64,000 nucleotides of DNA from Plazaster borealis (taxonomy: Eukaryota > Echinodermata > Asteroidea > Forcipulatida > Labidiasteridae). Below are positions 12,913 to 55,546 of this stretch, one piece after another. The position numbers and the translations under genes were made by a program. How positions within the stretch are numbered: position 1 is the stretch's first letter; every line of letters begins with the position of its first letter. The notes beneath the pieces were generated by a model. The model worked only from the letters and a program-made list of their open reading frames with translations. It made no database searches and had not been told where the DNA came from. The stretch is from assembly GCA_021014325.1 (NCBI GenBank), contig CM037472.1:31706234-31770233 (forward strand). Reading direction: 5' to 3'.

Positions 12913-13298
12913 TTAAAGGTATCGTAGATTTAAAGGTATCGTACACGTTTGGTAATTACTCAAAACAAATATTAGCATAAAAATTTACTTGGTAACAAGC
13001 AACGGAGAGCTGTTGATAGTATAAAACATTGTAGAAAACGACTCCCTCTGAAGTAACGTAGTTTTTGAGAGAGGTAATTTCTCACTAAAATAATAAAAAC
13101 TTCTTGCAAGAAGTTTTTATTCCTATCTGAAAGCACACAAATTTGTACAACAAGGGTGTTTTTTCTTTCATCATTTTCTTGCAACTTCGATGACCAATTG
13201 AGCCCAAATTTTCACAAGCTTATGTTATGCATATGTTGGGATACACCAAGTGAGAACACTGGTCTTTGACAATTACCAAAAGTCTTCAGTGCCTTTAA
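12913..13298. mobile_element. TTAA MITE family A, copy 3
   Basis: Starts TTAAAGGTATCG and ends CAGTGCCTTTAA. The homologous position in copy II (26856-26859) holds a single TTAA with matching flanks, which proves insertion at TTAA with duplication. The first 17 bp are repeated in tandem (second TTAA at 12930-12933). The central palindrome is AACTTCTTGCAAGAAGTT. Confidence 0.92.
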
Positions 13299-13663
13299 CG
13301 CCAAAGTCTAAAGCCTCCTACAATTTTTTGACAGAAATTTGTTAGAATGGACCCTGATGCATTTATGTCATCAAGCCGCCATCTTAGAGGTAAAATGGTT
13401 ATGAAACAATGGAAACGCGTATAGCTACGTACGCACGTCGCACTGCTATCGTCCAATTTGCCTCCTTTGGCCTCAGTGAGGGCGCTTTTTGGCCTCAGTG
13501 AGGGCTTTTTTAGAGTGTGACGTCATATGCAAGGGGTCTATACCTTCTTTTGACCCCCAGCCGAGGGCGCCCTAATCAAATGACGTCATGTGCATCAGGT
13601 CAAATCGATATGCACATGGCAGTATAATCTAGACTACCAATAATACTACTCTTCTGTGCACGA

Positions 13664-16600
13664 TTAATTTGTATCCAAGTCCACCACAAAGCGTCGAATA
13701 TTGGGTGGTTCCGTACCGAGCACCTCCTCGCCCTCATAAAAGTGTTCCAATTCTTTAGGAATAACCAAGCCTTTCCATTTGACTCCATGGTATGTACGCA
13801 AAATCTGTAAGAAAACCAATACAAAATCCTTATTACAACAATAATAGTGGCCATTTGTATTGCACCATGTAGGTCTAATAAAAAGACACTCTTGGCACAG
13901 GAGAGATGCAGATAAAACAAGTGGGCCCACAATGAGTTACAAAGATGACAATTTAAACACATAAATAAGTTTTCAGATGAGTTTTGAGTCTGGTATCTGT
14001 AGTGACTTTTCGGAGATTGGGTGGGAGTTCATTCCATAGTGATGGACCAGAGTGTGAGAAGGATCGGGTTCCCCATGAGTAGTGTGTGCATGGAAACCTT
14101 TATTTCATTTCTGTCATTATACTGTCACTTTTCGATGGAGTGGTACATCCGTGCTACAAACAAACAATCAATTCAACTCTACATTTGTTTTTCCATCAAA
14201 TTATAACGAAATGCTGAATCATCAAATTCAAATATAATGTTAACGCGTGTCAAATGTCCATTAAAAACACCTTAAGTAGGTTTTTTTAATGAGCTAGATT
14301 TGTTCTTGAGAACTTGTCTTATTTATTTATTCTACTGCCGCAAAGTAGATTTCGGAATTCGGGAGACTACTTAAAAACGTTGCATGGCCCGATTTTTTTG
14401 CAGAAAGAAAAATTGTTGAAATATTTTTTTCTCTGAACGAATAATGACATAATTATTAATGCTGAATTTAAACATAATTTTGATGCTGTGTCGGCCAAGG
14501 TTAACGTTTTTCTGAACGAATTTTTACATAATTATGATGCTGTTGCAAAACGAAAAACCGAAAACAACTTTCGCACTACGGAGAGTACACAAAACACGTT
14601 AAATGCTAAAAAATAAACGCAATACCCTTGAAAGCTCATAATTTCCTTGAAAATATACAAATAGCTAATTATAATTCAAATATAAATTTTCGGGTCAAAT
14701 CAGCCATAAATCGGACTAAGCATCTTTAAAATGGCAAATATCATTAAACATTATTTATCAAAATATTTCTCTGTGAGATTAGTACTTCAACTTTGAAAAA
14801 CTTGACACAAATAAAAACAATTCTTTGATAATTTACAAATTACGTACTTTAGGTATAAGTATCTATAGCTATCTATATTATCTTTATAAAGAACGAACAA
14901 TTTTAGTTACATACATTTGTAGCAATGGTGGGAACAAATGTCGAATGAGGAGCGTATTTAAGGTGCTTGTAAAATTCTGCACTCTCCTGTCTCTGACTAG
15001 TAACATGAATGTATCGCACTTTGAGACACCTCCTGGCGTAGTCTTCCATCAAATGGTGCAGTTTCTTTCCTAGTCCTCCATTCCTTCTGCTTTTCTTGAT
15101 CACAACTACATGTATATAAAATTGATTAGACTAAAGGTGTTGTACAGGATTGGTAGAGCTGACAAAATACAGTCACAGATGTTTTGTACAATCAACCATG
15201 AAATAACTTATCTGTGAAAATTTGGGCTTAAAGGTATCGTACACGTTTGGTAATGACTCAAAACAAATATTAGCATAACAACTTACTTGGTAACAAGCAA
15301 CGGAGAGCTGTTGAAAGTATAAAACATTGTAGGAAACGACTCCCTCTGAAGTAACGTATTTTTTGAGAAAGAGGTAATTTCTCACTAAAATAATAAAAAC
15401 TTCTGCTGAAAGCACCATTTGTACAACAAGGGTGTTTTTTCGTTCATCATTTTCTTGCAACTTCGATGACCAATTGAGCCCAAATTTTCAAAGGCTTGTT
15501 ATTTTATGCATATGTTGGGATACACCAAGTTAGTGAGAACACTGGTCTTTGACAATTTCCAAACGTGTTCAGTGCCTTTAATTCGTTGTGTAAGGAGTAG
15601 GGAGAAAGTAGTGAAAAACCATGCACAAGTCAGCTTGTAAACACATTGTCCTTAATTTTGGTTGTAACAACCGAAATGCGCCTTGGAGGGTTTTCATATA
15701 CAATTTTTTCGAACAGGACTTCATTTCAGCAGAGAGGAATATTTCACAGAAATATTGTTTCTAGTATGAACTTCATAATCAGTAAGCTTTCAGACTAAAA
15801 TTAAACATTGATGTTTTTATCCTTACCAATCCTGTATAATATATCCTTTAACTTTTATTAACAGGCCTAGTATTTATATCTGTTAATAATTATAACACCA
15901 TCATTATTATTGTCTGATTTCTTCGTTTTCTTTGCCTGTTTCTTTGCATTATGGGAATTGTTGGGGTTGATTGTTTGTTGTTTGTGTTTTTTGTATTTCA
16001 CAATGAGTAATGCATACGCCTGGTTTTAAATGCCATTTCTCTCAAGCTTTAACGACAGAGAACATGAATAAATCAAACCAGAACGAAGGCAGAGTCCAAA
16101 TTAACAAACATCGGAAACGGTTAAATATAACAAAGTAATTTAAAACCCACAGTAAAAACAAACAAAAAATTCCCACAGTAAAAACAAACAAAAATTCCCA
16201 CAGGCCACAACTTCTATTGGCACAATGGCCGTTGGTCGCACGTTTTGTACAGATATGTCGCGTCTGTGACATCACATGCACACAAAAACAGTCGACTGGG
16301 TCAACAACGGATCAAAAGACCTCTTATATTTCGTAGATGCCAAAGGTTTTAACAACTGAAAGACTATAGGTTCTGTTATGCTTTCAGAAATTAAATGTAT
16401 CAAATTCATGTGTAATCAACACATTATTAAGCTTGACCAGCATAAAATGCCAGGAAAAAGTGTACTCTAAATCTTTTCTGATATGTTGGTGTTGTTTATT
16501 ATAATATACCTGCTTCAGCATACACTCGGTTTTCGTCTCCGTCGACCCCGCATACTCTCACGTGACCGACAACTTCCTTTGTCGTTGTAGCGCCCCCTCG

Positions 16601-18858
16601 CGCCTCAGTCATTATTAGCGAACACGGCAGACCTGTACACTGCGGCGTTTCGATCAAATGCAATCTATCAAAATGAAGAGGTAATGAAAAAAATTGCTGC
16701 AAGTCTGTCTCGAAAACTTGGGCTAAATGTAGCCTGAAACTTTTTCCTAAATGTAGCCCTGTCCTTTTTTGTAGCCCCGAAATTGAACACAAGTGTAGCC
16801 CCGTCCTAAATGTAGCCCCAACCTAATGTAGCCCCGAACTTGTACCTATTAGAAAAGTGGCCCCAAATTGTACCTAATTGCAGCCCAACTTAAATGTAGC
16901 CCAAAGTTGTACCTAAATGTAGCCCCGACCTAAATGTAGCCCCAAACTAATTGAAGCCCTGAATCTGTACCTAATTATATAGCCCCAACCTAAATGTATA
17001 GCCCAAAACTTGTACCTAAATGTAGTCCCGACTCATTTGTATTCCCCAAATTTGTACCTAACTGTAGTCCCGACTTATTTGTAGCTCCAAACTTGTACCT
17101 AAATGTAGCCCCGACCTTATTGTAGCCCGGGCTTGCAGGGTCCCAACGGCAAGGCGACGTTTTTTGGTCTATGGGAACTCGAAGCCCGCGCCGTATTTAA
17201 ATACCCAGAAGGGTTGGCAACCTTCCTGAGGAGAGGGTATCCTTCTTGAACTAATTAATGGTCCACTTAAGGAAGAAAAGTACTAGCAAGCAGGTTCATG
17301 CATTGCCAACAATTATGATACCTAAGAAAATACGGTGACTAAAGACAAAAATAAGTTGAACCTGGCAAAAAGACATAATTCGGTGTTTACCTGCTTACCC
17401 AAAAAACTGATTGAAATGTAAAACGTAACCAATCCTTTAAAGGGAAATACTTTAAGCCTAATTAGTTCGTAAATCGTTGTCATCAAGTATTAATTATACA
17501 GACTTATTTACCATAATTTCACAGATGACTAATGCCGGAGGGGAACGAGCACACCGCCGTTGAATGATGATTGACATCGGCGGAAGCCCTACTAATTCTT
17601 ACATTTAGGTACAAGTTTTAAGCTACATTTACGGGCTGCACAGGTTGGGAATATTGAAATTATGAATTAGGGATTACAATATCCTGATGGAGCTAATGAG
17701 TAAAACTATAGAGTCTACGTAGGAAGGTACCGTCAGACACACTATATCCCCAAGGGACCATAGTTTTCATGCAGTACATTGTAGCCTACCGGATCTGTTA
17801 TTCACCTTTCAAAAGCTTATTCGTGACATCATCCAGCGAAATCTGACTGTGGGAGTTTATACACACAACCATCTGAATACGATACGGTTGATGATTAGAG
17901 AGCTCGAGGTTCAAAGTTCATTCGGGACCACGTATGATAGTTCGTGGTTTACCAACATGGTACCCCACCCAAGCTCTTCATTGTTAACTTCGTTTAATGG
18001 TATTAAAATGTTCGTGTGTGTATAAGGACCAGTAAAGTCTACTCTTTGACAAAATTAAACTGGGTGGTTCCTTGGTTGTATTTTTAGAACAAAACCACGT
18101 CGATGAAACAAAGTAAAGATAATTGTCATTTACTGGTAATTCGACAAGTGCGATGTGAGTTCTCTCGCTACTGGACCAACTTCCGGGGTATACTCTAAAA
18201 TGGGAACAACGCTTATTCGCTACTTGCACGGATCTGCCATTTGCGTGTAGAGCCTCGACTTCATACTTCATTGCTATTGTATTTATGCATCTGTTTGGAT
18301 GAAAGTGTTCACTGCTGTCCCCAATTCGAGGCTATAGGCTCTACACGCAAATGGCTGACCGTGCAAAGGGCGAATACCTCTTTAAGGCAGAAATGAACAA
18401 CACTATACCTAGCTGAGGAATTTCTAAAGAATGGACAATAGAGGGAAAATGGAGCTCAATTATTGTCAATGAATAACATATATCTCAGTTTGTATTAATA
18501 AACACCTCGATACATAAACCTTTAGTGATCACTATACACGGAGAGAAATGGGTTAAGATGGCACTCATGGTAATAACAGTTCAATTAGGCTACACGTGAT
18601 GAGGACTTTAAATGAAAACACCCTATCATAAAGATTCATTAATAATGACAAATAAATAAATAAATCGTTTTTATATCATAGAGGCCTACCCCCGTGGTTA
18701 CAATCCAATGTAGGCTCTTAGTTACATATGACTTGGTATAGAGGGCCAATGGTGCCATACCTCTCCGCTAAACAATCCGGCCATTCCTCTTTCAGAATGC
18801 TTATGGTGTCTTCGACCAAGTCTAAATTGGCATGAACAGGTTCCAGAGAAAATGTCAT
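13664..18858 (-). CDS. NAA80: NAA80-like GNAT acetyltransferase, 4 exons
   Basis: Predicted exons on the minus strand: 18761-18858, 16510-16664, 14915-15105 and 13664-13804 (98+155+191+141 nt, stop TAA; 194 aa). All introns are GT-AG and the phases join. Seen: LEPVH and KEEWPDCLAER in exon 1; LPCSLIM and EVVGHVRVCG in exon 2; the acetyl-CoA loop RRNGGLG (R-x-x-G-x-G), then HVTSQRQESAEFYKHLKY, in exon 3. The order and spacing match NAA80 (NAT6), the cytosolic enzyme that acetylates the processed actin N-terminus. The C-terminus is short and lacks the proline-rich region of mammalian NAA80. The first ATG of copy I is at 18996 (46 extra residues), but copies II and III lack one base in that stretch, so the conserved ATG at 18858 is preferred. 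Introns contain MITEs and an AT-rich or minisatellite filling. Alternative: another small GNAT acetyltransferase. Confidence 0.68.
15132..15851. mobile_element. TTAA MITE family E, copy 2, with nested MITE-A
   Basis: Starts CTAAAGGTGTTGTACAGGAT and ends with the inverted form (AATCCTGTATAATATATCCTTTAA). It matches 28555-28929 and 11195-11562, with MITE-A copy 4 nested inside at 15228-15581. Lies just 5' of exon 3 of the NAA80-like gene, in intron 2. Confidence 0.7.
15228..15581. mobile_element. TTAA MITE family A, copy 4 (nested)
   Basis: Flanked by TTAA in the context GGGCTTAA...TTAATTCGTTG. Copy II has the undisturbed GGGCTTAATCCGTTG at 28659-28673, a second independent empty site. This copy has lost most of the central palindrome. 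Confidence 0.92.
16724..17130. repeat. TGTAGCCC degenerate minisatellite, copy I
   Basis: Around twenty imperfect repeats of a unit like TAAATGTAGCCCCRAACTTG with a TACC spacer, in intron 1 of the NAA80-like gene. A single inverted unit (TTAGGTACAAGTTTTAAGC) lies 0.5 kb further at about 17605-17640. The whole may therefore be an element with a terminal array at one side. The equivalent array in copy II is at 29828-30252. Confidence 0.7.
18214..18376. mobile_element. Palindromic MITE family B, copy 2
   Basis: A 163-bp hairpin element bounded by TATTCGC/GCGAATA with inner inverted blocks GCCATTTGCGTGTAGAGCC. Present at the same place in copy II (32029-32191), so it predates the duplication. 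Lies in intron 1 of the NAA80-like gene. Confidence 0.75.
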
Positions 18859-19128
18859 CGTTTTTATATCGACTATACGGACCGGCTGCTTTTTGGTTGA
18901 TTGGAACTCAGTCGGTGTAGTTTTTGAGCGATGGATGCGGAAGTCATTGACTAACGTACGTTTCTGTTGCGTACCGGTAAAGTCAACCGAAGCCATAATA
19001 TGACCTGCAATGGCATGACAGAATTGTGTGTGTACATGTAAATGATTGCTTGCACAGGTCATACAATATGCACAGGTTATTGCAATTTGCACATTGCACC
19101 ATATAGTCCACGACTTCACTACTGTGCA

Positions 19129-19955: not shown

Positions 19956-22900
19956 TCATGGTAACATAAGATCCAGCATGCCTTCGTCCCATTCTTTTTC
20001 CAGGGGATAGGACAAAAGTTCTTCAAATGGGGGGTCATACATTATTACATAGAAAGTTTTAACACCAATAAATTTCCTGTCGCCTCTTTCTACGAGCTTC
20101 TCGATGTCATCCTCACTGGCTCTCCTCAAGACTGTGCCTTTGCAATGAATAAACCCCCCAGTCTCTGAATCCAAGAACATGTGCCTGATCCTCTTTGAAA
20201 TAATTCTATCCCCTGGAAAAGGACCCCTTCGTCGTTTTTTTGCCAATAGTTTATCTTTAAGTTGTTTTATTTTTTCCTCTTTGTCAATTTCTGGAGATGA
20301 TTGTGATGATGTTCCTGGCTGCTCCTGGTCATTTGCGGTCACTACTTGTGTTATTATTGATCGGAGGTGTTTTTCTAGCTGCTCAAGGGACAATTTCTGG
20401 CCTTTCGAAGTTAAATAAAATAGATCTTTAGAGATGCCACCTTTGCTACAAGTCTTCCAATGTTTGATTTGTGAAATTAGGGCTAGCTCCAGTTCTTTGT
20501 TTGTCTTCATTTCTTCTTTTATTTTATCTGCATCTTCTTGCGAGTTGCATAGCAGTTTACAGATTTTCAGGGCATTTGCTGTGTTTTCAGTTGCCTGCTT
20601 GGTTAGTGCCTTGCTTCTTTCTTCTCTTTATTGACCCTCAATTTCTCTACAACTATCTTTTTTATATTCTCACTTTTCCGTTGGTATAGTTTAAGAAATG
20701 AAGCCCGTTGCTTTCGCGCATTGTTAATGAATTCTGATTTCTTGTCTGGGTCCATTTCATCAAGGTACGATCTTGTCTTGTTCAGACTCCATAGCAAAAT
20801 GCCCTCAAATGCAGTGTTAGCATTGGGCATTTTCCTCCGCAGATGGTCCAGACCGGCAAAGACCCGTTCTGCAGCAAGATTGTCTTTAGGGCTTGATCCT
20901 GTCTGCAGTCGTAGTTCTTCTGAAGCATTGTGGAACCGTCCACCTGTGGTAAATGATCTTCAACTTGACGGCTGATGCAAACTACAAAATGGTGGAGTAT
21001 GATAGAAAGTGCCTGTTTTGTGAGATGTTCAATGGTTGCCGTGGTGGGTGCATAGAGTGCTGTATGAAGTTGGTCCTTTGAAGGTGGGATATCTGTGAAC
21101 AACACACAACTATCATTTACCAGGGGAGATGGATCCATCATCCATTCTTCAACTTTTTTTAACAGTCGGGTGTAATATTTGTCGGTATCCATAATGTGAA
21201 TATCACTTTCCACCATTTTCATTAGCGGTGTGGTTATGTGTTGGGAAATTATTCCCATTGCTCGGATGCCTGCAAGGATGATGTCATCTTGCAAGTCAAG
21301 TTTCAAACATTTGATGTACAAGTTTTCTTCTCGTTTTGTGTCGAACGAGGTGCACAGTGTGTGGAAATGGTCGATGTGATGATAAACGGCGGCAGAGTTG
21401 TGAAAAGGTATATTAAACCTATTACCCCTGTATGCTACCAAATGAGATGTTGGTGTAATTGCTTTGAACTCTTCCACCATGCCAGACTGTTCATCACAGT
21501 CTGGCCCCAGTACGTTACAGAATGTCCTGACAGTCAGAAGAGAAGCAGATTCTTTTCCCCTATTCCACAACAACTTCTTCTCTCTGCCAATTTTGTTTTC
21601 TTCGGCTTCTATTTGTTCCCATTCAAACAGAGCAGTAGCGGCATATTCTTGCAGATTTAATACAAGGTGTTTGCCACAATATAGGTCATTGATGGTGCTA
21701 ATTTCTTGTTTGATGTGGTCTATTTCGCTCCAGTTTTTAATCACCTCAGGGAGCACTGACGCTCTCCATTTTTCAAGCAGAAATATGTAGGCTTTATTCA
21801 CTATGCATCTGTCTGTCATTGTATTCTTCACTTTCGCAAGCATCTCATGGACCTGTTGTGGGGAATTGTCTTGAACACTGAGTGTAAGTAGTTCTTCCAA
21901 TGTTTCTTTGGTTTCTTGTAGTAGAGTGTCGGCACTTTCGGAGTGAACATCATGCAGGCTCATTCCGACTGTTCCTTCATCTGTTGATGCAAGGAATGTG
22001 GTATATGCTTTTCTCTTTTTGTTCGTACCATCCACGTGCAGTGTAACTGGGTTTTTTTATGCTTGTATTTTTGACCTTGCTGCCTCTTTATTTAGCATAG
22101 CTTGCTCAATACTCAGGTACCTTATCAGTGTGGGTTTTGGCAATCTATGTATGTTCATATTGGCCACATCTTTCAGTACAATTCGTATGATCTCAGATAC
22201 TTGACTACTTGGAACACCACGAGCGATCAACTCAAACAAGGTAAGTCTAATGTCGTTTGTGTACTTCCCATTCTCAAATGACACTATTTCCCGATTGTGG
22301 ATGATGTCATCTAAACGACTCTTCAAATCCTCATTCTCGTCTGTTACTTCTTTCAATTCTTTTTTCAAGTTTTTCACAACTTCGGTATTTTTCTCACTCT
22401 GTACTACCTTGAAGTGTCTTCGGGAATTCCCCAACTGTTTTTTGTCCTTCTGCAGTCCTTTAATCTTTTTTTCCATCATTTGTATTTTTGTTTAGTATTT
22501 GTCTTGCCTTGGCCTCTTCTTGTAGTTCATCTTCTCGTCTCTGAAGTCGTCGTACAATATTTTTCTTCTGTAGACTGTTGATTTCTTTTTTCAAAGATTC
22601 ATTGATCTCCTTTAAATTGGCAAGGGTCTTGTCAAGTTTTTCGGCATGAATCTGGGATTTTTGATGCTGCTCAACCTCATCTTGCCATAGATCAACAACG
22701 TACTCCATGCAGTCACCCATATGCTCTAGTGTGTGTTCTGAGATTATATCTGGGTAGAATTCAAGATCATTATCATTACCACTGTCATCATCATCCACGT
22801 CCTCATTATCTTCATCGCATTGTGGTTCTTTTCTTGGAGTTGGGATGGTGTAAGATGCTTCAAGGAATTCTTGTAATCGTTCTTTCCTTAGATGATGTCG

Positions 22901-23390
22901 CTTCTGTGTCAAGGATTGCCAACTACTATAAACAGTACCCTGGGGTGGTAGGGTGCTGTCAGATCCAAAGATGTTGAGCCACCATAGCTCACAAACTGTT
23001 CTCCATGAGGCATTTGTTCGTTGCCGAAAATAGTGCAGCTCAAGAATCATTGCATTAGTGATTTCTTTCGGTTGGCCATCTGTACGTGTGTCAGCACGCA
23101 GCAACTCTGGTGTTAAACCACTGCTTTGGCATTGCGGACCTATAATATGACTGCTTTTTGAAGTCAAATCTGGCATTTCTAGGGACAGACCAATGATATG
23201 CTTTTGTTTTTTCTGGCTTTGCTGACATGTCGTTTTATTTTTGCAAGCATCCCTCCAATGTGTGCTGGCATATTGAGATTCAAAGCCTCGAAAACTCTTG
23301 GGAAAACCTCCCGGTACGTTTTATTGGACCTGTCAATTCGTTGACGTATTGCTTCCAGAAAAGCTATATTTGGGATCCCTTGCCAATGAT
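19956..23390 (-). pseudogene. Broken transposase-like coiled-coil protein
   Basis: Consecutive minus-strand frames give one long protein of about 1,100 codons, broken by frameshifts near 23170, 22470, 20960 and 20610 and by a TAA at 22057-22059. The first exon seen starts after a good acceptor (TTTTCAACAG, 23391-23400), so a further 5' exon is missing or unrecognised. In order: a region with MPAHIGGMLAKIKRHV; a segment around WRTVCELWWLNIFG; an acidic tract (DNEDVDDDDSGND); a coiled coil; a core beginning LHVDGTNKKRKAYTTFLAST, then MTDRCIVNKAYIFLLEKWR, CGKHLVLNLQ, GNRFNIPFHN and ERVFAGLDHL, followed by PNANTAFEGILLWSLNKT; then a second coiled coil. The DGT and DR motifs plus the ERVF-type motif look like an RNase-H-fold transposase, and I recall similar uncharacterised proteins in fish, corals and molluscs. 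Family name not known to me. No terminal repeats were found, so host origin remains possible. Confidence 0.55.
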
Positions 23391-23612
23391 CTGTTGAAAA
23401 TAAAAAAAATTAAAAATTACAAATACCAATTATTTATGTGTGCCCCCTCATATGTCACAGAAAATCACAGCAATAGAAAAAGAAAAAATGTTTTTCCAGA
23501 AGTACAAAATTCCATATAATTTTTAACAATAGATGCTGGAAAAAAATTGTGATTGAAGTTTTTTTTAACACAATCGCGAGGAGTAACACCACAGGATAGA
23601 ACCAGTCCATCG
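23391..23612. other. Intron or breakpoint flank
   Basis: AT-rich sequence between the transposase-like exon (acceptor at 23391) and the start of the third NAA80-region copy. It probably includes intron sequence of the former. Confidence 0.4.
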
Positions 23613-23633
23613 AGGGCCAATAATGTGCCATAC

Positions 23634-23731
23634 CTCTCCGCTAAACAATCCGGCCATTCCTCTTTCAGAATGCTTATGGTGTCTTCGATCAAGTCTAGAT
23701 TGGCATGAACAGGTGCCAGAGAAAATGCCAT
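23634..23731 (-). pseudogene. NAA80-like exon 1, orphan copy III
   Basis: The 98-nt exon is intact, from ATG at 23731 to a preserved donor (GAGAG|GTATGG). It encodes MAFSLAPVHANLDLIEDT followed by ISILKEEWPDCLAER. No downstream exons follow on this side before the unrelated transposase-like region, so no complete product is possible. It might be spliced to exons of copy I some 7 kb away, but nothing in the sequence shows this. Confidence 0.7.
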
Positions 23732-23926
23732 CGTTTTTAAATCGACAATACGGCTCGCTGCCTTTTGGTTGGTTGGAACTCAGTCGGTGTAGTTTTTGAG
23801 CGATGGATACGTAAGTCATTGACTAAGAATTGTGTGTGTGTACATGTAAATGATTGCTTGCACATTTATAATACACCGCGCCACAGGTCATCGCCACACA
23901 ATATGCAAGGGTTATTGCAATTTACT

Positions 23927-25933
23927 ATGGAGTTCCATATGTGCCACTCCTTTGGAAAAAAATAATTCCGTCGCATTTTTTTTTTTCCGTCGCATTTTTT
24001 TTTTTCCGTCGCATTTTTTTTTCCCGTCGCATTTTTTTTTTCAGGCACATTTTTTTTTCAGGCACATTTTTTTTCTGAATCGGTCACGTGACCGTCACAT
24101 GATGTCCATGTGATGATTTTTTGGCTCCGCTATTGCAGTTGGTGTGTGAACAATTCTATTCTTCTCCTTCAGGGTTGCGGCCATTGCTGTATTACAATTC
24201 GTTACAACTGTTTTTGACCATGTAGTGTTAAAACGCGCGCATCTAACATTTTTTTCAAGTGTTAAAACATACTGCTTTTCTATAATTAATGCATGCCTAA
24301 TTCACATTGTGCGTGGGACGCGCGCGTATACTAAGTGAGGCCAACGCAAAAAAACAAAGGAAACACAATTTATATTCAAAATTAATGTCCACACCCGTCA
24401 TCTGTGGCACCGCTGTTGCGAAAAATATAACCATTCCATTCTAGGGGGTAATTAATGATAACTGATTGATTGCGTCCGAGTCATCATAGTAACCATTGAT
24501 GACGTATGTTTTGTGCGCATGTGCAATAACTTAATCTAACAACTTAACTTTTTAGATTTAAGTGGGGTACTAAGATAAGTGGGGTACTTAGATGTTTTGT
24601 GAATAGCTACTAATAAGCGCCCCACTTAAAGGGACACACCGGTTACCTGTTTACGTAATTTAGTCATGTAGAATTTTGAAACAACGGATTCGATCAGCGA
24701 GGTGTGCCGACTAGCAAACCCGCAGTAACAACAACGTATAGTTAGTGGTCTGGCTCCCTACCCCTCCCACATGTTCATGAGCTTCCAGGTACAGCTATCT
24801 CTTGGCTAGCGGGTTTCTGTCGCGCTAGCACCGCCGAGATACTCTGCTCGCCAGCTACACGACTGCCCCTGTGTTGCGTGTAGCGAGTCCCCACGCTGTG
24901 CACTGTAATACAAGCTTCCGTTGCTCGGACTCTCTGAAATAAAATCTTACGTTCGATTTGTTTGTATTGTTTACAACTTGTATCCATAATTTGACTACCC
25001 TGTTCTTCTCCATTCCTGGAAGACCTTTAGAGTCATGTTTTAGTGTATTTTGTAGCCTTAAAAGCCCAACGAAGCCGGTGTGCCCCTTTAACTTGGAGTA
25101 CTTAAGTTTGCACTTAAGTCTTAACCCTGCTAACTTAAAGGGACACACCGGCTTCGTTGGGCTATTAAGGCTACCAAATACACTAAAACATGACTCTAAA
25201 GGTCTTCCAGGAATGGAGAAGAACAGTTGAAAAAAGAACCGAGCAACGGAAGCGTGTATCACAGTGCTAGTGCGACAGAAACCCGCTAGCCAAGAGATCA
25301 GTTATCATTACCCCTCGAATGGAATGGTTATGTGGCAACAGTGGTGCCACAGATGACGGGTGTGGACATTAATTTTGAATATAAATTGTGTTTCCTTTGT
25401 TTTTTTTGCGTTGGCCTCACTTAGTATACGCGCGCGTCCCACGCACAATATGAATTTATACATGCATTAACTATAGAAAAGCAGTATGTTTTAACACTTG
25501 AAAAAAATGTTAGACGCCAACTGCAATAGCGGAGCCAAAAAATCATCACATGGACATCATGTGACGGTCACGTGACCGATTCAGAAAAAAAAATGCGCCT
25601 GAAAAAAAAAAATGCGCCTGAAAAAAAAAAAATGCGACGGAAAAAAAAAATGCGACGGAAAAAAAAAAATGCGACGCCCAAAAAAAAATGCGACGCCCAA
25701 AAAAAAAAATGCGACGGAAAAAAAATGCGGCCCCCCAAAAAAAATGCGCCTGAAAAAAAAAAATGCGACGCAAAAAAAAAAATGCGACGCAAAAAAAAAA
25801 AAAATGCGACGGAAAAAAAAAAAATGCGACGCAAAAAAAAAAATGCGACGCAAAAAAAAAAATGCGACGCAAAAAAAAAAAAAATGCGACGGAATTATTT
25901 TTTTCCAAAGGAGTGGCACATATGGAACACCAT
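23927..25933. mobile_element. TU-like foldback transposon, 2.0 kb giant palindrome
   Basis: The whole element is an inverted repeat. The outer ends read ATGGAGTTCCATATGTGCC and, inverted, ATGGTGTTCCATATGTGCC. Next come arrays of short poly-T/CCGTCGCA units, about 6 on the left (23968-24075) and about 16 on the right (25585-25900, inverted). Then unique arms follow, including the matched inner blocks 25002-25094 and 25134-25226 around a 39-bp loop. A segment of roughly 95 bp (about 24145-24240) exists only in the left arm. It is flanked by 8-bp repeats AATTTACT (23919-23926) and AATTTACC (25934-25941). Empty-site homologues read AATTTGCA in copies I and II. Long inverted repeats with outer satellite domains and an 8-bp duplication are the hallmarks of sea urchin TU and Drosophila FB foldback elements. 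No coding capacity; the transposase must act in trans. Confidence 0.85.
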
Positions 25934-26190
25934 AATTTACCTATTGCACCCTTAGTCCACGACTTCACTACTGTGCACTAGTACCATGCTAGTACGTAGC
26001 ATACGAGGATCGAAAAGTAACCCGCCGAAAGAGACTGCCAGGAGACTGCGCTATAAAAGCGCCCTCTACTTTTGGTATTGGTAAGTTTCAGCCACACCAA
26101 CATCCGACACTCACTCCAAAAATATCATCACTATTAATAGTTGCTATAACTACAGTAACATCGGTAATGTTGTTGTGGGTTTTTGTTTTT

Positions 26191-26408
26191 TTGTGGGGTT
26201 TTGTTTTGGGGTTGTTGGTTGTTTTTTGTTTTTTTTTTTTTTTTTGGGGGGGGCGAGAATATTAATTGGGGGGTGCAAATCTAAAAGAAAAATTACATCG
26301 GCGCTTTAGCGCCGCCCGTCGCGCGCAGCGTCACGGGGGAGTTGGAAATGTTTTGTAAATGAATGCCCAATTCTAGCTGTTTGGTCCATTTTTGCGCTTA
26401 TTTTTTTA
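26191..26408. other. GT-rich and G-run spacer
   Basis: Long T and G runs (T18G8 at about 26229-26254) followed by a GC-rich palindromic patch (GGCGCTTTAGCGCC). A similar T-to-G run plus GCGAAAATGAA occurs at 55540-55575. No gene. Confidence 0.5.
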
Positions 26409-28554
26409 CCCTTGCTGGTGATGTTTATATTAAATTCTTGTTGCTAGCAGTAGTTTCAATGTTCCCACACCTTGTTTCGATCCAGTATCCAACGATTACT
26501 CTGTGTCTCGTAGCAACTACACACAGAAATAACAAGAAGCCACAGTACCGCGCGGTCAAAGTCCGGTCGTGTCGCCCGGTAAGGCCATGTTTTGCAGCTC
26601 TCGCTCGACTCGAGAGTCTCGCATAAAATGATAACCTAATTTATAGAGCAGTATAAATAAATGATTCTTGAAGTCAAGAGTCACCGCTGTACTGCATCCA
26701 GTAAGAAGTCAGTTTTCATCCAAGTCACGTCATTCAAATAAGCAGTTAAAGATACTGTTGTGTATAGTATTGTAAAACACATGACATTGTTAATAATAAG
26801 CCTTCTTTATTAGGCCTATTTTGCACCTTGTGGCTGGACTGTTCAAACCACAGACTTAACGCCAAAGCCATCAAGCCGCCATCTAAGAGGTAAAATGGTT
26901 ATGAAACAATGGAAACGCGTATAGCTACGTACGCGCGGCGCACAGCTATCGTCCAAATTGCCTCCTTTGGCCTCAGTGAGGGCGCTTTTTGGCCTCAGTG
27001 ACGGCGCTTTTTTAGAGTGTAACGTCATATGCAAGGGGTCTATGGTCTATACCTTCTTTTGATCCCCAGCCGAGGGCGCCCTAATAAAATGACGCCATGT
27101 GCATCAGGTCAAATCGATATGCACATGGCAGTATAATCTAGACTACCAATAATACTACTCTTCTGTGCACGATTAATTTGTATGCAAGTCCACCACAAAG
27201 CGTCGAATATTGGGTGCTTCCGTACCGAGCACCTCCTCGCCCTCATAAAAGTGTTCCAACTCTTTAGGAATAACCAAGCCTTTCCATTTGACTCAGTGGT
27301 ATGTACGCAAAATCTGTCAGAAAACCAATACAAAACCTATAATAACAACAATAATAGTGGTTATTTGTAATGCACCATGTAGGTCTATAAAAAGACACTC
27401 CTGGCACAGGAGAGATGCAGATAAAACAAGTGGGCCTACAACGAGTTACAAACATGACAGTTTAAACGCACAAATAAGTTTTCAGATGAATTTTGAAGCT
27501 GGTATCTGTAGTGACTTGTCGGAGATTGGGTGGGAGTTCATTCCATAGTGATGGGCCAGAGTGTGAGAAGGATCGGGTTCCCCATGAGTGGTGTGTGCAT
27601 AAAAACCTTTATTTCATTTCTGTCATTATACTGTCACTTTTCGACGGAGTGATACATCCGTGCTACAAACAATCAATTCAACTCTACATTTGTTTTTCCA
27701 TCAAATTATAACAAAATGCTAAATTATCAAATTCAAATATAATGTTAACGCGTGTCAAATGTCCATCAAAAACACCTGAAGTAGGCTTTGAATGAGCTAG
27801 ATTTGTTCTTGAGAACTTGTCTTATTTATTTATTCTATACTGCCGCAAAGTAGATATCGGAATTCGGGAAACTACTTTAATGTTAAACGTTGCATGGCCC
27901 GATATTTTGCAGAAAGAAAAATTGTTGACATATTTTTTTCTCTGAACGAATAATGACATAATTATTAATGCTGAATTTAGACATAATTATGATGCTGTGT
28001 CAGCCAAGGTTAACGTTTTTCTGAACTAATTTTTACATAATTATGATGCTGTTATATGTTAAAAGTAAATGCAAAACCTTGAAAGCTCATAACTTTATTG
28101 AATATATACAAATAGCTATTTATAAATCAAATATAAATTTTCGGGTCAAATCAGCCATAAATCGGACCAAGCATCTTCTAAATGGCAAATATAATAAAAC
28201 GTTATTGATCAAAATATTTCTCTGTGAGATTAGTACTTCAACTTTGAAAAAATTGACACAAATAAGAAAAATTCTTTGATTTACCAATTACGTACTTTAG
28301 GTAGGGCCTATATACATAACGAAAAATATTATAGTTACACTTGCAGCAATGGTGGGTACAAATGTCGAATGAGGAGCGTATTTAAGGTGCTCGTAAAATT
28401 CTGCATTAACCTGTCTCTGACTAGTAACATGAATGTATCGCACTTTGAGACACCTCCTGGCGTAGTCTTCCATCAAATGGTGCAGTTTCTTTCCTAGTCC
28501 CCCATTCCTTCTGCTTTTCTTGACCACAACTACATGTATATAAAATTGACTAGA

Positions 28555-28929
28555 CTAAAGGTGTTGTACAGAATTGGTAGAGCTGACAAAAAATATAGTC
28601 GCAGATGTTCTGTACGATCAACCATATATACATGAAATAACTCATCTGTGAAAATTTGGGCTTAATCCGTTGTGTGAGTCGAGAGAAAGTAGTAAAAAAC
28701 CATACACGATTGTCAGCGTGTAAACACATTGTCCTTAATTTTGGTTGTAACAATGAGCTGTTGCGCTTTGGGGGTTTCCAGATACAGTTTTTTCGAACAT
28801 GACTTCATTTCAGCAGAGAGAAAGATTTCACAGAAATATTTGTTCATATGAACTTCATAATCAGCAAGCTTTCAGACTAATTAAACATTGATGTTTTTAT
28901 CCTTTACCAATCCTGTATAATACCTTTAA
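28555..28929. mobile_element. TTAA MITE family E, copy 3
   Basis: CTAAAGGTGTTGTACAGAAT at the left and, inverted, TTAAAGGTATTATACAGGAT at the right. Same location as copy 2 but without the nested MITE-A. The single TTAA at 28662-28665 is the empty site. Confidence 0.75.
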
Positions 28930-29827
28930 CTTTATACAGGCCTAGTATTTATATCTGTTGATAATTATTACACCATCATTATTATTGTCTGTTAGGTATT
29001 TCTTTGTTTTCTTTGCCTGTGTCTTTGCATTATGTAATTGTTGGGGTTGATTGTTTGTTGTTTGTGTTTTTTGTTTTTCACAATGAGTAATGCATTACGC
29101 CTGTAGTTTTAAATGCCATTTCTCTCAAGCTTTAACGACAAAGAACCCGAATAAATCAAACCAGAACGAAGGCAGAGTCCAAAGTAAACAAACATTTGAA
29201 ACGGTAATTAAAAAAAAAAAACAGTAAAAGCAAAAAAAAACATTCCCACAGGCTACAACTTTTATTGGCACAATGGCCGTTGGTCGCACATAATAAAATA
29301 CGATACTGATGTTAGTTTTCTACAGATATATGTCGCGTCTGCGACATAACATGCATACAAAACAGTCGACTGGGTCAACAACGGATCAAAAGACCTCTTA
29401 TATTTCGTAGATGCCAAGGGTTTTAACAACTGAATGTATATTTAAAGGCCTATAGGGTCTGTTATGCTTTCAGACATTAAAAGTAATGTATCAAATTCAT
29501 GTGTAATCAACACATTGTTAAGCTTGACCAGCATAAAATGCCAGGAAAAAGTGTACTCTAAATCTTTTCTGATATGTTGGTGTTGTTTATTATATACCTG
29601 CTCCAGCATACACTCGGTTTTCGTCTCCGACGACCCCGCATACTCTCACGTGACCGACAACTTCCTTTGTCGTTGTAGCGCCCCCTCGCGCCCAGTCATT
29701 ATTAGCGAACACGGCAGACCTGTACACTGCGGCGTTTCGATCAGAATGCAATCTATCAAAATGAAGAGGTAATGAAAAAATTTGCTGCAAGTCCGTCTCG
29801 AAAACTTGGTAATGTGCTGCCCCTAGA

Positions 29828-30252
29828 TGAAGCCCTAAATGTAGCCCGACCTAAATGTAGCCTGAAACTTGTTCCTAAATGTAGCCCTGTCCTTTTTGGT
29901 AGCCCCGAAATTGAACATAAGTGTAGCCCCGTCCTAAATGTAGCCCCAACCTAATGTGGCCCCAAACTTGTACCTATTAGAAAAGTGGCCCCAAATTGTA
30001 CCTAATTGCAGCCCAACTTAAATGTAGCCCAAAGTTGTACCTAAATGTAGCCCCGACCCAAATGTAGTCCCAAACTAATTGAAGCCCTGAACCTGTACCT
30101 AATTATATAGCCCCAACCTAAATGTAGCCCAAAACTTGTACCTAAATGTAGTCCCGACTCATTTGTATTCCCCAAATTTGTACCTAACTGTAGTCCCGAC
30201 TTATTTGTAGCTCCAAACTTGTACCTAAATGTAGCCCCGACCTTATTGTAGC
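29828..30252. repeat. TGTAGCCC degenerate minisatellite, copy II
   Basis: Counterpart of 16724-17130 with near-identical unit order, so the array predates the duplication. A few extra units at its left end (AAATGTAGCCCGACC type) are missing from copy I. Confidence 0.7.
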
Positions 30253-30921
30253 CCGGGCTTGCAGGGTCCCAACGGCAAGGCGACGTTTTTTGGTCTATGG
30301 GAACTCGAAGCCCGCGCCGTATTTAAATACCCAGAAGGGTTGGCAACCTTCCTGAGGAGAGGGTATCCTTCTTGAACTAATTAATGGTCCACTTAAGGAA
30401 GAAAAGTACTAGCAAGCAGGTTCATTGCCAACAATTATGATACCTAAGAAAATACGATGACTAAAGACAAAAATAAGTTGAACCTGGCAAAAAGACATAA
30501 TTCGGTGTTTACCTGCTTACCCAAAAAAACTGATTGAAATGTAAAACGTAACCAATCCTTTAAAGGGAAATACTTTAAGCCTAACTAGTTCGTAAATCGT
30601 TGTCATCAAGTATTAATTATACAGACTTATTTACCATAATTTCACAGATGACTAATGCCGGAGGGGAACGAGCACACCGCCGTTGAATGATGATTGACAT
30701 TGGCGGAAGCCCTACTAATTCTTACATTTAGGTACAAGTTTTAAGCTACATTTACGGGCTGCACAGGTTGGGAATATTGAAATTATGAATCAGTGATTGC
30801 AATATCCCGATGGAGCTAATGAGTAAAACTATAGAGTCTACGTAGGAAGGTACCGTCAGACACACTATATCCCCAAGGGACAAGGTTTTCATGCAGTACA
30901 TTGTAGCCAACCGGATGTGTT

Positions 30922-31616
30922 GGCCTGCGCTAAACGTCGTACTTTTGCCGTGTCGAACTCAAATGATTTTTGCACGGCAAAAGTGCGGCAATTAAAACGA
31001 ATTGGTGACAAACGTTAAATTTAGTAAAATAGTTTGCCGCACTTAAAGTAATTCAAGACGGCGACGCGAGAGAAAATTGCTAAAGAGTCATGTTTCATGA
31101 TGTCAATTCAAGCTGTGACATTCAATAATGACAAAATCATAATGACATTGTTTCCCAACTTAAATGTTGTCATTATTATTACCATCGTTGGTGAGTGGCG
31201 CATCGTCTTTTTTCAGAGTGTCAAACAAAATCAATTAGTTTAACTCTGACATCTATTATGTTTATTCCAGTCAGGAGTTGTTTCCTTTCCCATCCCGGAA
31301 TACTCTCAGCTACGGTACTAACAAGGAGAATATTCACATTATTAGAAAATACAAATAAAACTTGTTTCAAAAGTTTTGCGCATGCGTATTCCCAAAGAGC
31401 ATCGCTCGACTGAGAATTCAATTTGATTCGACACGGCAAGAGCGCGACGTTTGTCACCACGTCGTGCAACTACCGTGTAGCACGTCAGCGCTTGCCGTGC
31501 TACACGGCAGTGTCGAATTTAAATCAAAGGTTTGCGCTAAACGTCGCTCTTTTGTCGAATTTAATTCATCATTTTCTAAGTTCGACACGGCAAAAGTGCG
31601 ACGTTTAGCGCAGGCC
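30922..31616. mobile_element. TIR element (MITE family F), absent from copy I
   Basis: Ends are near-perfect 38-39-bp inverted repeats starting GGCCTGCGCTAAACGTCG. The interior has further inverted blocks containing CGGCAAAAGTGCG and a GTAGCACG-centred hairpin. The uninterrupted homologous site in copy I is near 17797-17801. The target duplication is unclear because the right junction has gained extra bases (TAAAATTA). Non-coding. Confidence 0.8.
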
Positions 31617-32028
31617 TAAAATTATATTCACCTTTCAAAAGCTTATTCGTGACATCATCCAGCGAAATCTGACCGTGGGAGTTTATCACACAACCATAAA
31701 TGATGATTAGAGAGCTCGAGGTTTACAGTTCATTCGGGACCACGTACGATAGTTCGTGGTTTACCAACTGAATGGTACCCCACCCCAGCTCTTCATTGTT
31801 AACTTCGTTTAATGGTATTAAAATGTTCGTGTGTGTATAAGGACCAGTTGAGTTTACCCTTTGACAAAATTAAACTGGGTGGTTCCTCGGTTGTATTTTT
31901 AGAACAAAACCACGTCGATGAAACAAAGTAAAGATAATTGTCATTTACTGGTAATTCGACAAGTGCGATGTGAGTTCTCTCGCTACTGGACCAACTTCCG
32001 GGGTATACTCTAAAATGGGAACAACGCT

Positions 32029-32191
32029 TATTCGCTACTTGCACGGATATGCCATTTGCGTGTAGAGCCCCGACTTCATACTTCATTGATATTGTATTTA
32101 TGCATCTGTTTGGATGAAAGTGTTCACTGCTGTCCCCAATTCGAGGCTATAGGCTCTACACGCAAATGGCTGACCGTGCAAAGGGCGAATA
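32029..32191. mobile_element. Palindromic MITE family B, copy 3
   Basis: Duplicate of 18214-18376 within segmental copy II; same TATTCGC/GCGAATA ends. Confidence 0.75.
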
Positions 32192-32953
32192 CCTCTTTAA
32201 GGCAGAAATGAACAACACTATACCTAGCTGAGGAATTTCTAAAGCATGGACAATAGAAGGACAATGGAGCTCAATTATTGTCAATGAATAGCATATAGCT
32301 CAGTTTGTATTAATAAACACCTCAATACCTTTAGTGATCACTTCACGGAGAGAAATGGGTTAAGATAGCACTCATGGTAATCACAGTTCAATTAGGCTAC
32401 ACGTGATGAGGACTTAAATGAATACACCCTATCATAAAGATTCATTAATAATGACAAATAAATAAATAAATCGTTTTTATATCATAGAGGCCTACCCCCG
32501 TGGTTACAATCCAATGTAGGCTCTTAGTTACATATGACTTGGTATAGAGGGCCAATGGTGCCATACCTCTCCGCTAAACAATCCGGCCATTCCTCTTTCA
32601 GAATGCTTATGGTGTCTGCCACCAAGTCTAAATTGGCATGAACAGGTTCCAGAGAAAATGCCATCGTTTTGATATCGACTATACGGCTCGCTGCTTTTTG
32701 GTTGATTGGAACTCAGTCGGTGTAGTTTTTGAGCGATGGATGCGGAAGTCATTGACTAACGTACGTTTCTGTTGCGTACCGGTAAAGTCAACCGAAGCCA
32801 AAATATGACCTGCAATGGCATGACAGAATTGTGTGTGTACATGTAAATGTTTGCTTGCACATATACATCGTGCCACAGGTCATCGCCACACAATATGCAC
32901 AGGTTATTGCAATTTGCACATTCAACACTAGTCCACGACTTCACTACTGTGCA

Positions 32954-33184
32954 GTAGTAGCGTACGGGGATCGAAAAGTAAACCCGCTGACAGAGACTGC
33001 GCTATGAAAGCGCCCTCTGCTTTTGGCATTGGTAAGTTTGAGCCACACCAACACTGACACTCACTCCAAAAATATAACCACTAATAATAGTTGCTATAAC
33101 TACAGTAACATCGGTAATGTTGTTGATGTTTTGTTATTGTTCGTTGTTGTTATTGTTGTCCAGGCCCGTAACCATGGATGTCTT
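32954..33184. other. Upstream flank shared with 25980-26190
   Basis: Continues the homology of the third copy. Contains the hairpin-like GCGCTATGAAAGCGC (GCGCTATAAAAGCGC in the other copy) and, 30 bp on, the donor-like GGTAAGTTT on the plus strand. Ends at a (TTTA)n tract. No gene assigned. Confidence 0.45.
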
Positions 33185-33571: not shown

Positions 33572-33634
33572 TTTATTTATTTATTTATTTATTTTTTTTT
33601 TTTTTTTTTTTTATTTTTTTTTTTTTTTTTATTT
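33572..33634. repeat. (TTTA)n/poly-T tract
   Basis: TTTA units followed by T-runs separating fragment D' from the 3' end of LINE B. Confidence 0.9.
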
Positions 33635-33894
33635 AGTGGAGTTATATTACTCCTTTTATTTCACACTCCAATCAATAAATCAATACTGACAATCTACAAG
33701 GAAACAATAAATAGCAAAATTACAAGAAACAAACAAAGAACAAATCCATAAAGGAAATGAACGACAATTATGGCTATATACAGTTTGTACAAATTAAATT
33801 AACATACAAATAAAAATATACAGCACACTCAACAAAAGAGTTTTGCACGAAAACAGATATGCTAAAAGGAAAGAAGGACAAACCAAAACAAAAA

Positions 33895-36800
33895 TTAATA
33901 ATTGAATTCTAATTGGGTTTTTTTATTTATGGAGCACAGGGTGTTGTTACGAGTGTAAACAGTTTTGAACTTTTCAAGATTCATTCTGCCCTTCTCTAGG
34001 GTCAAGAACCGTTTAAGCTTAATTTTGAACTGAAAAATTATATCAATATCGGATGGGTTCTTATAATTACTAAATACTCTTTTACAACGGATGTTCCAGA
34101 TTTGGCGGAGCATTTTAACGACAATAACACCTTGAACTGGTTGTAAATCATAACCCAGAATTCTATTTTGATCGCTAAGACAGAAGTATTTGTTGCCTGT
34201 ATATTTCCTAATAAGGTACTCGACAAAAATCCAAGCGTTTAAAGTGCTGATACAATAAATGAACAAATGCTGATGGGATTCTGGTTCAGTTTCACATAAT
34301 GGACATTTAACATCAAAAACTTTACCTATTTTGTACAAAAAATCTCTAGTGGGGAGAATCATATGTTTTAATCTATACCAAAACTGTTTATCTTCAGGAT
34401 CAAGCAGGTTGTTTTTGAAACCGTTTTCCCATATCATGGACCAGTTTAAATCTTGAGCGTAGCAGAGGACTTCTTGCCAAACATTCTGACATTTTGGCGG
34501 AATGAATTTCTTGGAAATTAATCTAGAATAGTTGGATTTGGAATTTGTGTTCTTTATTTTGATATCACTGTTGGCATCATGGTCGGGAAAAACAAGCCAG
34601 TTACAGATATTATTAGCAGGGCCATGTCTCCGTTCTCTTACTAATGTGAAATCTAAATGATCTTTCAACCTGCCCATGATTCTACCTGCATTGATTCTTT
34701 GAATTGAACATTTGTTTGCAACTATTTTAAAGGAAATCAGGCTACCTTGTCTGGTCACATTTTTAACTTTGGTCATACCAGCAGATTTAAGAACAGGACT
34801 TTTTTAAATAGTGTTGTCCCATGTGGCAATGCAATTGTTGAAAATAGGAACGTCACGTGTCTCTAAAAGACTTGAAAATTACACGTTAGACTGCCACCAG
34901 CTTTCCAAAAGGCATCAATAACTTCCTCGTAGAAAGGAGTAGTTTGGTTCTTAGTAGGCCTATTAGTATTAGCGAAAATGTACCAACCTAAATTGGCATT
35001 ACCACTAGCTTTATCTATCCAATGTTCAAAGAAAATTTTCCACTTGCCCTCCGCGCTAACCAGTTTAATTTTAAGCTAGTTAGCTTACACTGAACGTCTA
35101 GAAGACCTGTTCCACCTTGCGCTTTAGGACCGATAACAGTATTTCTTTTTATCTTGTCATTCGGGCCATTCCAAAAGAAATTCCAGATGCTTTTGTTAAT
35201 TTTCTTTACAAATTCCACTGGGCAGGCCAGAACGCTGCCTAAGTAGTTTATACCAGCACCAATGAAAGTGTTAACAATGACAGTTTTTCCCGTATAAGTC
35301 AAGTTACGTTTAGACCACTTGTCAAGTACACAATTGATTTTGTTAGTTCTTTGTCCCCAGTTGTCCTGCGCTGTTACCTCGTTTCCAAAAACAATACCAA
35401 GAATTTTAATCTTATCATTACACCAACTAAAACGACAAGGTTTGTCTTGCCTCTGCTTCCATTTGCCAAGCCACAGGCCTTTGGTCTTATTAACATTAAG
35501 TTTGGAGCCGCTACCCTTGCAATATGTAGCAAAAAGGTCTTCCACAATATTAAACTCGCATTCATTGCCAATAAAAATGTTGGTATCATCAGCGTGTTGG
35601 ATTAATTTAACACTCGTATCACCATTGGGAGTCTGAATGCCTCTTAAAAACTGGTTGTTTCTAATAAGACTACCCAGACCTTCGGCACATATGGCGTAAA
35701 GTAGCGGAGACAGCGGACAACCTTGTCTAATCCCTCTAGTAATCTTGACAGGTGAACCAATGAAGTTATTTAAGATAATTCTGCAGTTGGGTTTACTGTA
35801 GAAGACTTCAATCCATTTTATGAGTAAGGGGGGAAGATTCATTTTACGCATAATAGAAAACATGTACTCCCAATTAATTCTATCAAATGCTTTTTCTTGG
35901 TCATAACTGATAACAGCGGCACCTAGATTTTCCCAATGGACATAATCAATCGTATCTCTTAAAAGCATGAGGTTATCTTGAATTTTCCGGTTGGGCACTC
36001 CACATGTCTGTTCTTCGCCAATAATAAAAGGCATGGCTAATTTAAGGCGATTGGTGATGGCTTTAGACAATATTTTATAGTCCACTGTCAGAAGGCTTAT
36101 TGGACGCCAATTTTTCAGGTCATAGCGACTTCCCGAATTCTTATAAATGAGTCTAACGAGAGCCGAATTCATGGAATTGCACAAAAGCCCATTTTTAAGA
36201 CAGTCTTTGTAAACTTCAAGAATATCCTTTCCAATAATGTGCCAATAACTTTGGTAAAATTCGACTGTCAAGCCGTCGATACCGGGGCTTTTGTTTTTAT
36301 TCATTTGGAAAAGAGCATTTTTAATCTCTTCTTCGGTAATCTCTCTACCAAGATCTTCAAGAACATTGTCAGGAATAGTTTCAGTTTTGATATTGGAAAT
36401 GATTTCATCCAAATGGATTTTTGAAAGGTTCTCAGAACTATACAGATTACTGTAGAAATCATTGACAATTTCAAGCATTGTATCTGGCTGATCAAATGGT
36501 ACTCCCTCACTGTTAAAAAGTTTATCAATTTTTAAGCTGTGAATCTGTTGTCTTTCAAGATTGAGAAAATATTTTGAAGCTGTTTCGCCTTCTTCTTTTT
36601 GAATGTTATGGGTTCTTATCTGGGCCTTCTTCCATTCATTAATTTCATACTGTTTAAGATTATGTTCGAGTTCTTTTATCTCGTCATTACACTCAGTATC
36701 ATGGTTTTTGATTAAAAGATCGTAACGTTTCTGTAGCTTGATGCGGTTTTGTTTGAGAGTACGGGCTTTTTCTTTGCCAAATTCCTGAATAATTTCTTTC

Positions 36801-37676
36801 ATACGGAATTTGCCAGTTTCCCACCATTTGGAGAGGGAGTCATATTGACGTTTTTGGGTTTTCCAAAATATCCAAAGATTAATAATACGAGAAGTGCATT
36901 CAGGATCTTGTAATAGAGAATTGTTACATACCCATCGGCCTTGACCGTGGGGAGTGTCTATATCATCTAGTTTCAAACCAACAATTTGATGATCAGAAAA
37001 AACCCATGAGGAAACAGAAACGTCATTTACATTGTTTATAAGATTTGAAGACACAAAAATGTAATCAATTCTGCTGGAATGGCTACTACCTTTATGAAAA
37101 TGAGTGAATCCTTCTTTGTCAGGGTGAAATGTGCGCCAAGAGTCAATAAGGTCTTTTTCCTGTAAAACATTGGACAAAACAGTTTTGCTGGGCTCCTTAA
37201 CATTTATGTTGTCAAGGTTACAATTAAAATCACCTCCAATAATCCAATTTTCAAGACCGGTAATATGATCACAATAATTATCAAAGAAGTTAGTGCGATC
37301 ACGAATTTGATTAGGGGCATAGACGGAGGAAATAAAGCAGGTATTGTTGCTCCAGACCATTTGGGCCTTTATCCATCTTCCTTCGTCATCAGTGGTAATA
37401 TTGGAAATATTAAGACGAACCTTTTTTGAGGTAAGAATAGCTACCCCCCTAGATTGGCGGTTGCCATGACTAAAATACATTTCACCCTGCCATTGCTTAC
37501 TCCACTCAGATTCATCATTGACATCACTATGAGTCTCTTGAATAAAAATAAGACTGAATTTTTACTTTGTAAGTAATAAAAAAAACACTTCTTTTAAGAT
37601 CGTTCCTTAAACCATTAACATTTATAGAGGCAATGGATAAAAAAGACATAATACATATTAGATAGAACCACTTCAT
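33895..37676 (-). pseudogene. LINE B ORF2: endonuclease-reverse transcriptase (broken)
   Basis: ORF2 makes the nicking endonuclease and reverse transcriptase used for target-primed reverse transcription. The central frame 35015-37480 (821 aa) is open. It contains APE-like endonuclease signatures (GGDFNCNL, RIDYIF, SDHQIV), RT boxes SYDQEKAFDRI, GIRQGCPLSPLLYAI and QHADDTNIFI, and the thumb region. Small indels around 37540-37570 disconnect the first 50 codons (SIASINVNGLRN). A net 13-bp deletion near 35065 shifts the frame. A further disruption near 34800 separates the C-terminal frame 33895-34776, which carries the Cys-His finger CPLCETEPESHQHLFIYC. The start is set by homology with copy A (ATG 37676). 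Confidence 0.88.

Positions 37677-39798: not shown

Positions 39799-40042
<244 letters not shown>

Positions 40043-55311: not shown

Positions 55312-55546
<235 letters not shown>

Follow-up and report, generated by a model that had tools for sequence, protein, structure and literature searches.

Two of the described foldback elements, the sea urchin TU element and Galileo of the P superfamily, duplicate 8 bp and 7 bp of their targets respectively, and TU carries outer repeats of 15 bp. Foldbacks have mostly been assigned to the Mutator superfamily, although exceptions exist, according to the sections cited of PMC4079207 and, for Tm1, of PMC3169594. In Galileo the tandem units of the arms are described as binding its transposase domain (PMC3688188). 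Complete families of the IS3EU superfamily are described as always having TA..TA termini and usually making 6-bp duplications (PMC10045372), and fungal IS3EU elements as having the ends TAYGG..CCRTA, a 6-bp duplication and inverted repeats of more than 30 bp (PMC12730594). The element discussed here, from the starfish Plazaster borealis, is probably a non-autonomous foldback DNA transposon that would be moved in trans by an IS3EU-type transposase encoded in another element.

The window is the whole stretch of 64,000 nucleotides that was analysed, and it belongs to an assembly of 560.6 Mb in 717 contigs. A protein of the host is 88% identical to an Asterias rubens protein. The published assembly is reported as 561,050,340 bp in 801 scaffolds, 22 of them chromosome-scale, built from long reads with Hi-C (PMC9270726). 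The features of the element and its surroundings are collected in Table 1.

Table 1. Positions of the element, its parts and the surrounding repeat in the window.
Feature	Position	Strand	Basis
Tandemly duplicated region with a probable NAA80-like acetyltransferase gene	12441-19128 and 26397-33138		
Paralogous empty site A, single ATTTGC	19085..19090	.	sequence
Third first-exon fragment of the NAA80-like repeat (copy B)	23609-23826		
Left target duplication copy ATTTAC, 6 bp	23920..23925	.	sequence
Whole element TATGG...CCATA, 2,009 bp	23926..25934	.	compared with 46 two-ended copies
Left terminal core, begins TATGGAGTTCCATATGTGCCACTCCTTTGG	23926..23968	+	arm comparison
Left outer array, 6 units of 16-19 bp	23966..24074	+	unit count
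Left inner domain	24075..24466	+	arm comparison
Palindrome CGGTCACGTGACCG within left inner domain	24081-24094		
Palindrome CACATGATGTCCATGTG within left inner domain	24096-24112		
Left middle segment, absent from right arm (part of ~332-bp deletion)	24467..24625	+	arm comparison
Central segment, TTAA-bounded, short inverted ends AGGGACACACCGG / CCGGTGTGCCCCT	24626..25091	+	
Loop between arms, 37 bp	25095..25131	.	
Second copy of central segment, inverted, internally deleted	25132..25298	-	
Right inner domain, lacks about 97 bp relative to left	25297..25584	-	
Right outer array, 16 units of 16-22 bp	25585..25891	-	unit count
Right terminal core	25892..25934	-	arm comparison
Right target duplication copy ATTTAC, 6 bp	25935..25940	.	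sequence
Paralogous empty site C, single ATTTGC	32912..32917	.	sequence

The initial annotation had described an element of 2,007 bp (23927-25933) with an imperfect 8-bp target duplication (AATTTACT/AATTTACC). Both values had to be corrected. Once the boundary is moved outward by one base, the element is flanked by two perfect copies of ATTTAC and its ends read TATGG...CCATA. Forty-eight loci were examined, and 46 two-ended copies were retained after two with a single end each (L029 and L030) had been dropped; the 46 are best matches or listed ends and form a non-random sample. A perfect 6-bp duplication is present in 41 of these 46 copies, the window copy counted in, and the chance of one is 3.3e-4 per copy. 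The five others score 5/6, 5/6, 4/6, 3/6 and 3/6. No copy has a perfect 7- or 8-bp duplication at the corrected boundary, and at the boundary one base further in a perfect 8-bp match is found in three of the 46. The 41 hexamers have G or C at position 1 in 30 cases and at position 6 in 31 (p 1.4e-5 and 2.6e-6, respectively, against a GC content of 38.9%), and this preference at the outer positions is symmetric.

The initial annotation was right that the window contains homologues without the element. The sequence AATTTGCA at 19084-19091 and 32911-32918 corresponds to both element-free paralogous sites. The flank of the element is part of a tandem repeat with three copies, A, B and C, and the insertion is in B. 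Near the site the identities are 93.6% for A-B, 93.6% for B-C and 97.0% for A-C. Position 5 of the hexamer is A in both duplications in copy B and G in copies A and C, so the insertion probably took place after copy B had split off. The repeat is probably an NAA80-like acetyltransferase gene. One of its exons matches the GNAT family (E 7.7e-7), with Drosophila CG8481 (E 0.013) and human NAA80 (E 0.076) as the best solved structures, and its first exon has a weak match to NAA80 (E 1.7). Of copy B only a piece resembling the first exon is left. The insertion site is about 195 bp upstream of the initial Met in that frame, assuming this Met to be the start codon. Elsewhere in the window there are two copies of a 6.5-kb non-LTR retrotransposon in the same orientation (33572-40038 and 49075-55548, 99% identical). 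Both contain an 18-bp repeat array, and the first has an endonuclease and a reverse transcriptase. A fragment of a Gypsy-like reverse transcriptase and RNase H is found at 59457-60320 (+).

The inverted repeat fills the whole span of the element, as had been claimed, with arm-to-arm matches down to E = 5e-88, and it extends further in than had been apparent. The arms are collinear up to 25094 on the left and 25132 on the right, and in the middle BLAST aligns left positions 871-905, 974-1002 and 1074-1168 with right positions 636-670, 667-695 and 708-802. Because the arms are collinear through the middle, the element forms a single palindrome whose loop is 37 bp long. The order from the outside in is terminal core, unit array, inner domain and middle. 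There is one mismatch over 42 bp between the terminal cores, and the ungapped identity of paired arm segments outside the arrays is 93-98%. Compared with the left arm, the right arm is missing about 97, 332, 72 and 59 bp. The right inner domain of the window copy (275 bp) is the shortest of those extracted, the others being 305-379 bp. The deletion of about 97 bp and the 6-unit left array distinguish the window copy.

The central segment looks like a TTAA-type miniature transposon that may have been trapped in the arm. In 290,719 bases it has 235 matches within family copies versus one outside them; since this sole outside match is weak (79% over 72 bp), that the segment was a free-standing miniature transposon is something we infer from its structure. 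It is 99-100% identical at the 40 places scored, which were the best 40 of 903 candidates. The same inverted partial copy adjoins it at 38 of the 40, so the asymmetric middle is a trait of the family.

A search of the starfish genome with the element gave 480 matches, and among the best 40 of 1,096 candidates, which were scored, at least 32 other places align in one piece over query positions 81-1618 or more at 91-99% identity. The ends of the family are fixed (TATGGTGTTCCATATGTGCCACTCC), and a 25-mer from them matches the genome at 160 places with at most one mismatch, versus none for the reversed-pattern control. Of these ends 131 were located, and 49 pairs are spaced by under 30 kb. In the 46 copies, which were selected with a 23-mer allowing up to 4 substitutions, 86 of 92 termini are exact to a 30-nt consensus TATGG... 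and the maximum is 2 mismatches. The initial annotation asked whether other copies have common ends and an 8-bp duplication; they do have common ends, and their duplication is constant in length, at 6 bp. Paired-end copies range from 207 to 9,664 bp and are mostly 1.9-2.9 kb, some sizes being accurate to some tens of bases. The 207-bp copy (L069) consists of two cores and 7 units and has the perfect duplication ATACGC. The middle of a 9.7-kb copy (L064) has far longer arrays of the same unit and another satellite with repeated SCARDNM frames. In viral contigs neither an 18-base end nor a two-unit pattern had a match, and bacterial and archaeal genomes gave five 18-base end matches, none adjoining an array, which is by estimate about the number due to chance. 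A protein search with the array reading frame gave none at E <= 1 among 1,686 candidates.

The number of units varies among copies. Where both arrays could be parsed (34 copies) they have 6-20 and 7-24 units, and the two numbers are equal in four copies. The inequality of the two arrays in the window copy, already seen in the initial annotation, is confirmed by the unit counts. It had been attributed to unequal exchange or slippage, and this explanation is supported in part, by a tandem block duplication in the right array (25737-25814 and 25817-25894 are 96% identical) and by signs of exchange between the arms. Across these 34 copies the left arrays tend to have more units where the right arrays have fewer (rho -0.40, p 0.018), a correlation that was set aside, as it fails when the arrays are measured in bp (rho -0.25, p 0.15; permutation 0.078).

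The history of the arms can be followed in the inner domains. Both domains were extracted and compared for 24 copies, two further ones (L074 and L080) having been dropped as recombinant or poorly aligned. Left and right domains of the same copy differ by 3.0% and a left domain differs from the right domains of other copies by 3.1%. The divergence among left domains is 1.4% and among right domains 1.2%. As both of these are lower than the divergence within a copy, the arms were inherited as distinct parts and were not homogenised copy by copy. Most copies descend from one asymmetric palindromic master. In a few copies there are signs of arm-to-arm exchange. L027 and L072 have right-type markers across the array-side portion of the left inner domain, and L027 does not show the reverse change in its right arm. 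Among the other copies, the unit type TGCGGCCCCCC is present in 13 of 33 left arrays and in none of 33 right ones (Fisher p 5.6e-5, with copies treated as independent), and in the window copy this left-type unit is located in the right array. The innermost unit pair is 'Ct' in 19 of 34 left arrays and 'tC' in 28 of 34 right arrays; the window copy has 'tt' on the left and 'CC' on the right, which may point the same way, but the left pairs of its close relatives L010 and L012 are also 'tt'-like. A nearest-neighbour classifier of whole arrays, correct for 55 of 66, places each array of the window copy with those of the other arm, and for the right array the margin is just 0.002.

The ends of the starfish family, TATGG..CCATA, fit the TAYGG..CCRTA motif given for fungal IS3EU. 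The 6-bp duplication agrees in length, and the inverted repeat goes beyond 30 bp, as the 42-bp core is followed by the arrays and inner domains. The placement in IS3EU rests on the ends and the duplication length, because no copy was found that encodes an IS3EU transposase. The same absence from the copies read leaves some room for a foldback that makes 6-bp duplications as well but belongs to a different superfamily, described or not. Such duplications are not unique to IS3EU, being listed for Polinton (PMC10045372), and Dada elements are said to duplicate 6-7 bp (PMC3706591). This alternative is nevertheless unlikely, given that the five-base end TATGG fits the TAYGG reported for fungal IS3EU (PMC12730594). 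Dada in particular is described as having no terminal inverted repeats and as sitting in small RNA genes (PMC3706591), whereas the starfish family has long inverted repeats and 41 diverse hexamers.

A TU- or FB-type foldback of the Mutator superfamily, with duplications of 8-9 bp, is a far weaker candidate. It would share the overall build, in which long inverted arms carry tandem units, and it would belong where most foldbacks have been placed. However, the starfish family makes perfect 6-bp duplications in nearly all of its two-ended copies, neither the 8 bp of TU nor the 8-11 bp that PMC6446971 gives for Mutator. The initial annotation had called the element TU/foldback-type. The foldback part of this description is supported, with satellite-like arms, and the kinship with TU is not supported, given the shorter duplication and the IS3EU-like ends. 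Long inverted repeats are hard to assemble, but an inverted chimera of the assembly is most improbable, as the left and right arm variants are common to many copies, the arms also differ by indels and array content, and target duplications and empty paralogues are present.

With a non-autonomous IS3EU-type foldback as the preferred reading, a source of transposase was sought. The window element had been proposed as a case for defining the transposase of the family, and no copy that fills this role was found. No IS3EU transposase was seen in the family copies read, most single ends having been read for 1.5-3 kb at most or less. The rve_3 and IS481 profiles match many long frames of LTR-element size. 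From 61 and 68 matches (among the best 150 of 487 and 68 of 1,052 candidates) 94 integrase-type places remained after duplicates had been merged by eye, and no pair formed by the 131 located ends (of 160) encloses any of them, the nearest being 8.7 kb from a located end. The top IS481-like match (L084) was rejected as a partner, since by eye it sits in a Gypsy-like element. An alpha-kinase is described as a companion gene to the transposase in TET-bearing fungal IS3EU (PMC12730594); the genome has only two matches to it, near none of the 131 located ends. Long copies were also considered as autonomous members. In the one of 9.0 kb (L065), family sequence flanks a nested DDE_Tnp_4 gene and a frame for a BESS protein on both sides, and the 9.7-kb copy has satellite-like frames only. 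The six-kilobase insert with the DDE_Tnp_4 and BESS frames (L065:2358-8583) seems to be a Harbinger-type element that landed in a foldback copy. Inward of eight single ends (L050, L059, L047, L039, L040, L058, L085 and L086) there is unrelated DNA, additional family sequence or, as judged by eye, a frame resembling reverse transcriptase.

The neighbouring gene at 19956-23320 (-) has no ends in common with the element and was rejected as a partner. Pfam gives no match above the cut-off for any of its four frames, and no PDB structure matches the model of one frame (mean pLDDT 67) at E <= 0.001. Protein relatives are found in Asterias rubens (69%) and Amphiura filiformis (55%). The conserved motifs DGT, KNTMTDR and GNRFN suggest that it encodes a transposon protein.

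In the mechanism proposed here, an IS3EU-type transposase with an integrase-like DDD/E domain would act in trans, cutting and joining the ends with a 6-bp stagger. The terminal core would be the cleavage site. By analogy with Galileo, the arrays of ~19-bp units are candidates for repeated or extra transposase-binding sites. The arrays may change when blocks are duplicated in tandem or lost, and also when the inverted arms of an element exchange sequence or convert one another.

No report of an IS3EU foldback with satellite arms was found in a literature search that excluded Repbase and subscription journals, where an entry is possible. The top-ranked papers on foldback, IS3EU and starfish name neither foldback nor IS3EU. 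Where foldback and IS3EU co-occur in one paper, IS3EU is mentioned in a classification table of satellites. The word 'foldback' is absent from the main text of the Plazaster genome paper (PMC9270726).

There is an even chance that the foldback design has arisen in IS3EU as a third superfamily besides Mutator and P, and that within single elements the two inverted arms swap their satellite sequence, the hairpin serving as a small nursery of recombining satellite in a starfish genome. If the IS3EU placement is true, satellite-armed foldbacks would be favoured by unrelated transposases, beyond those of Mutator and P, and one possible ground for this is that they offer many weak binding sites close to short ends. 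The many similar copies (91-99% in 32 long matches) and the arm-specific markers make array growth and arm exchange readable, and the 207-bp copy does the same for the minimal mobile ends.

The starfish family has the long inverted arms, outer tandem repeats and variable unit number of a foldback. Like TU it resides in an echinoderm, and TU has likewise long inverted arms and outer tandem repeats; the two are set apart by description, with 8 bp and 15-bp units in TU versus 6 bp and 16-22 bp units in the starfish. Galileo likewise has foldback arms in a superfamily other than Mutator, but it is P-type and thus set apart by description as well. FB, Tetris and Tm1 of the Mutator group share with the starfish family composite arms, variable tandem units, non-autonomous copies and MITE-like short forms, whereas duplications of 8-10 bp are given for Tetris (PMC4079207) and Tm1 (PMC3169594). 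IS3EU, including GingerRoot (Repbase; PMC10045372, PMC12730594), has the same end motif, 6-bp duplication and inverted repeats of more than 30 bp. The starfish family differs from the described IS3EU elements in that its copies read contain no transposase and in being a near-complete palindrome with satellite arms.
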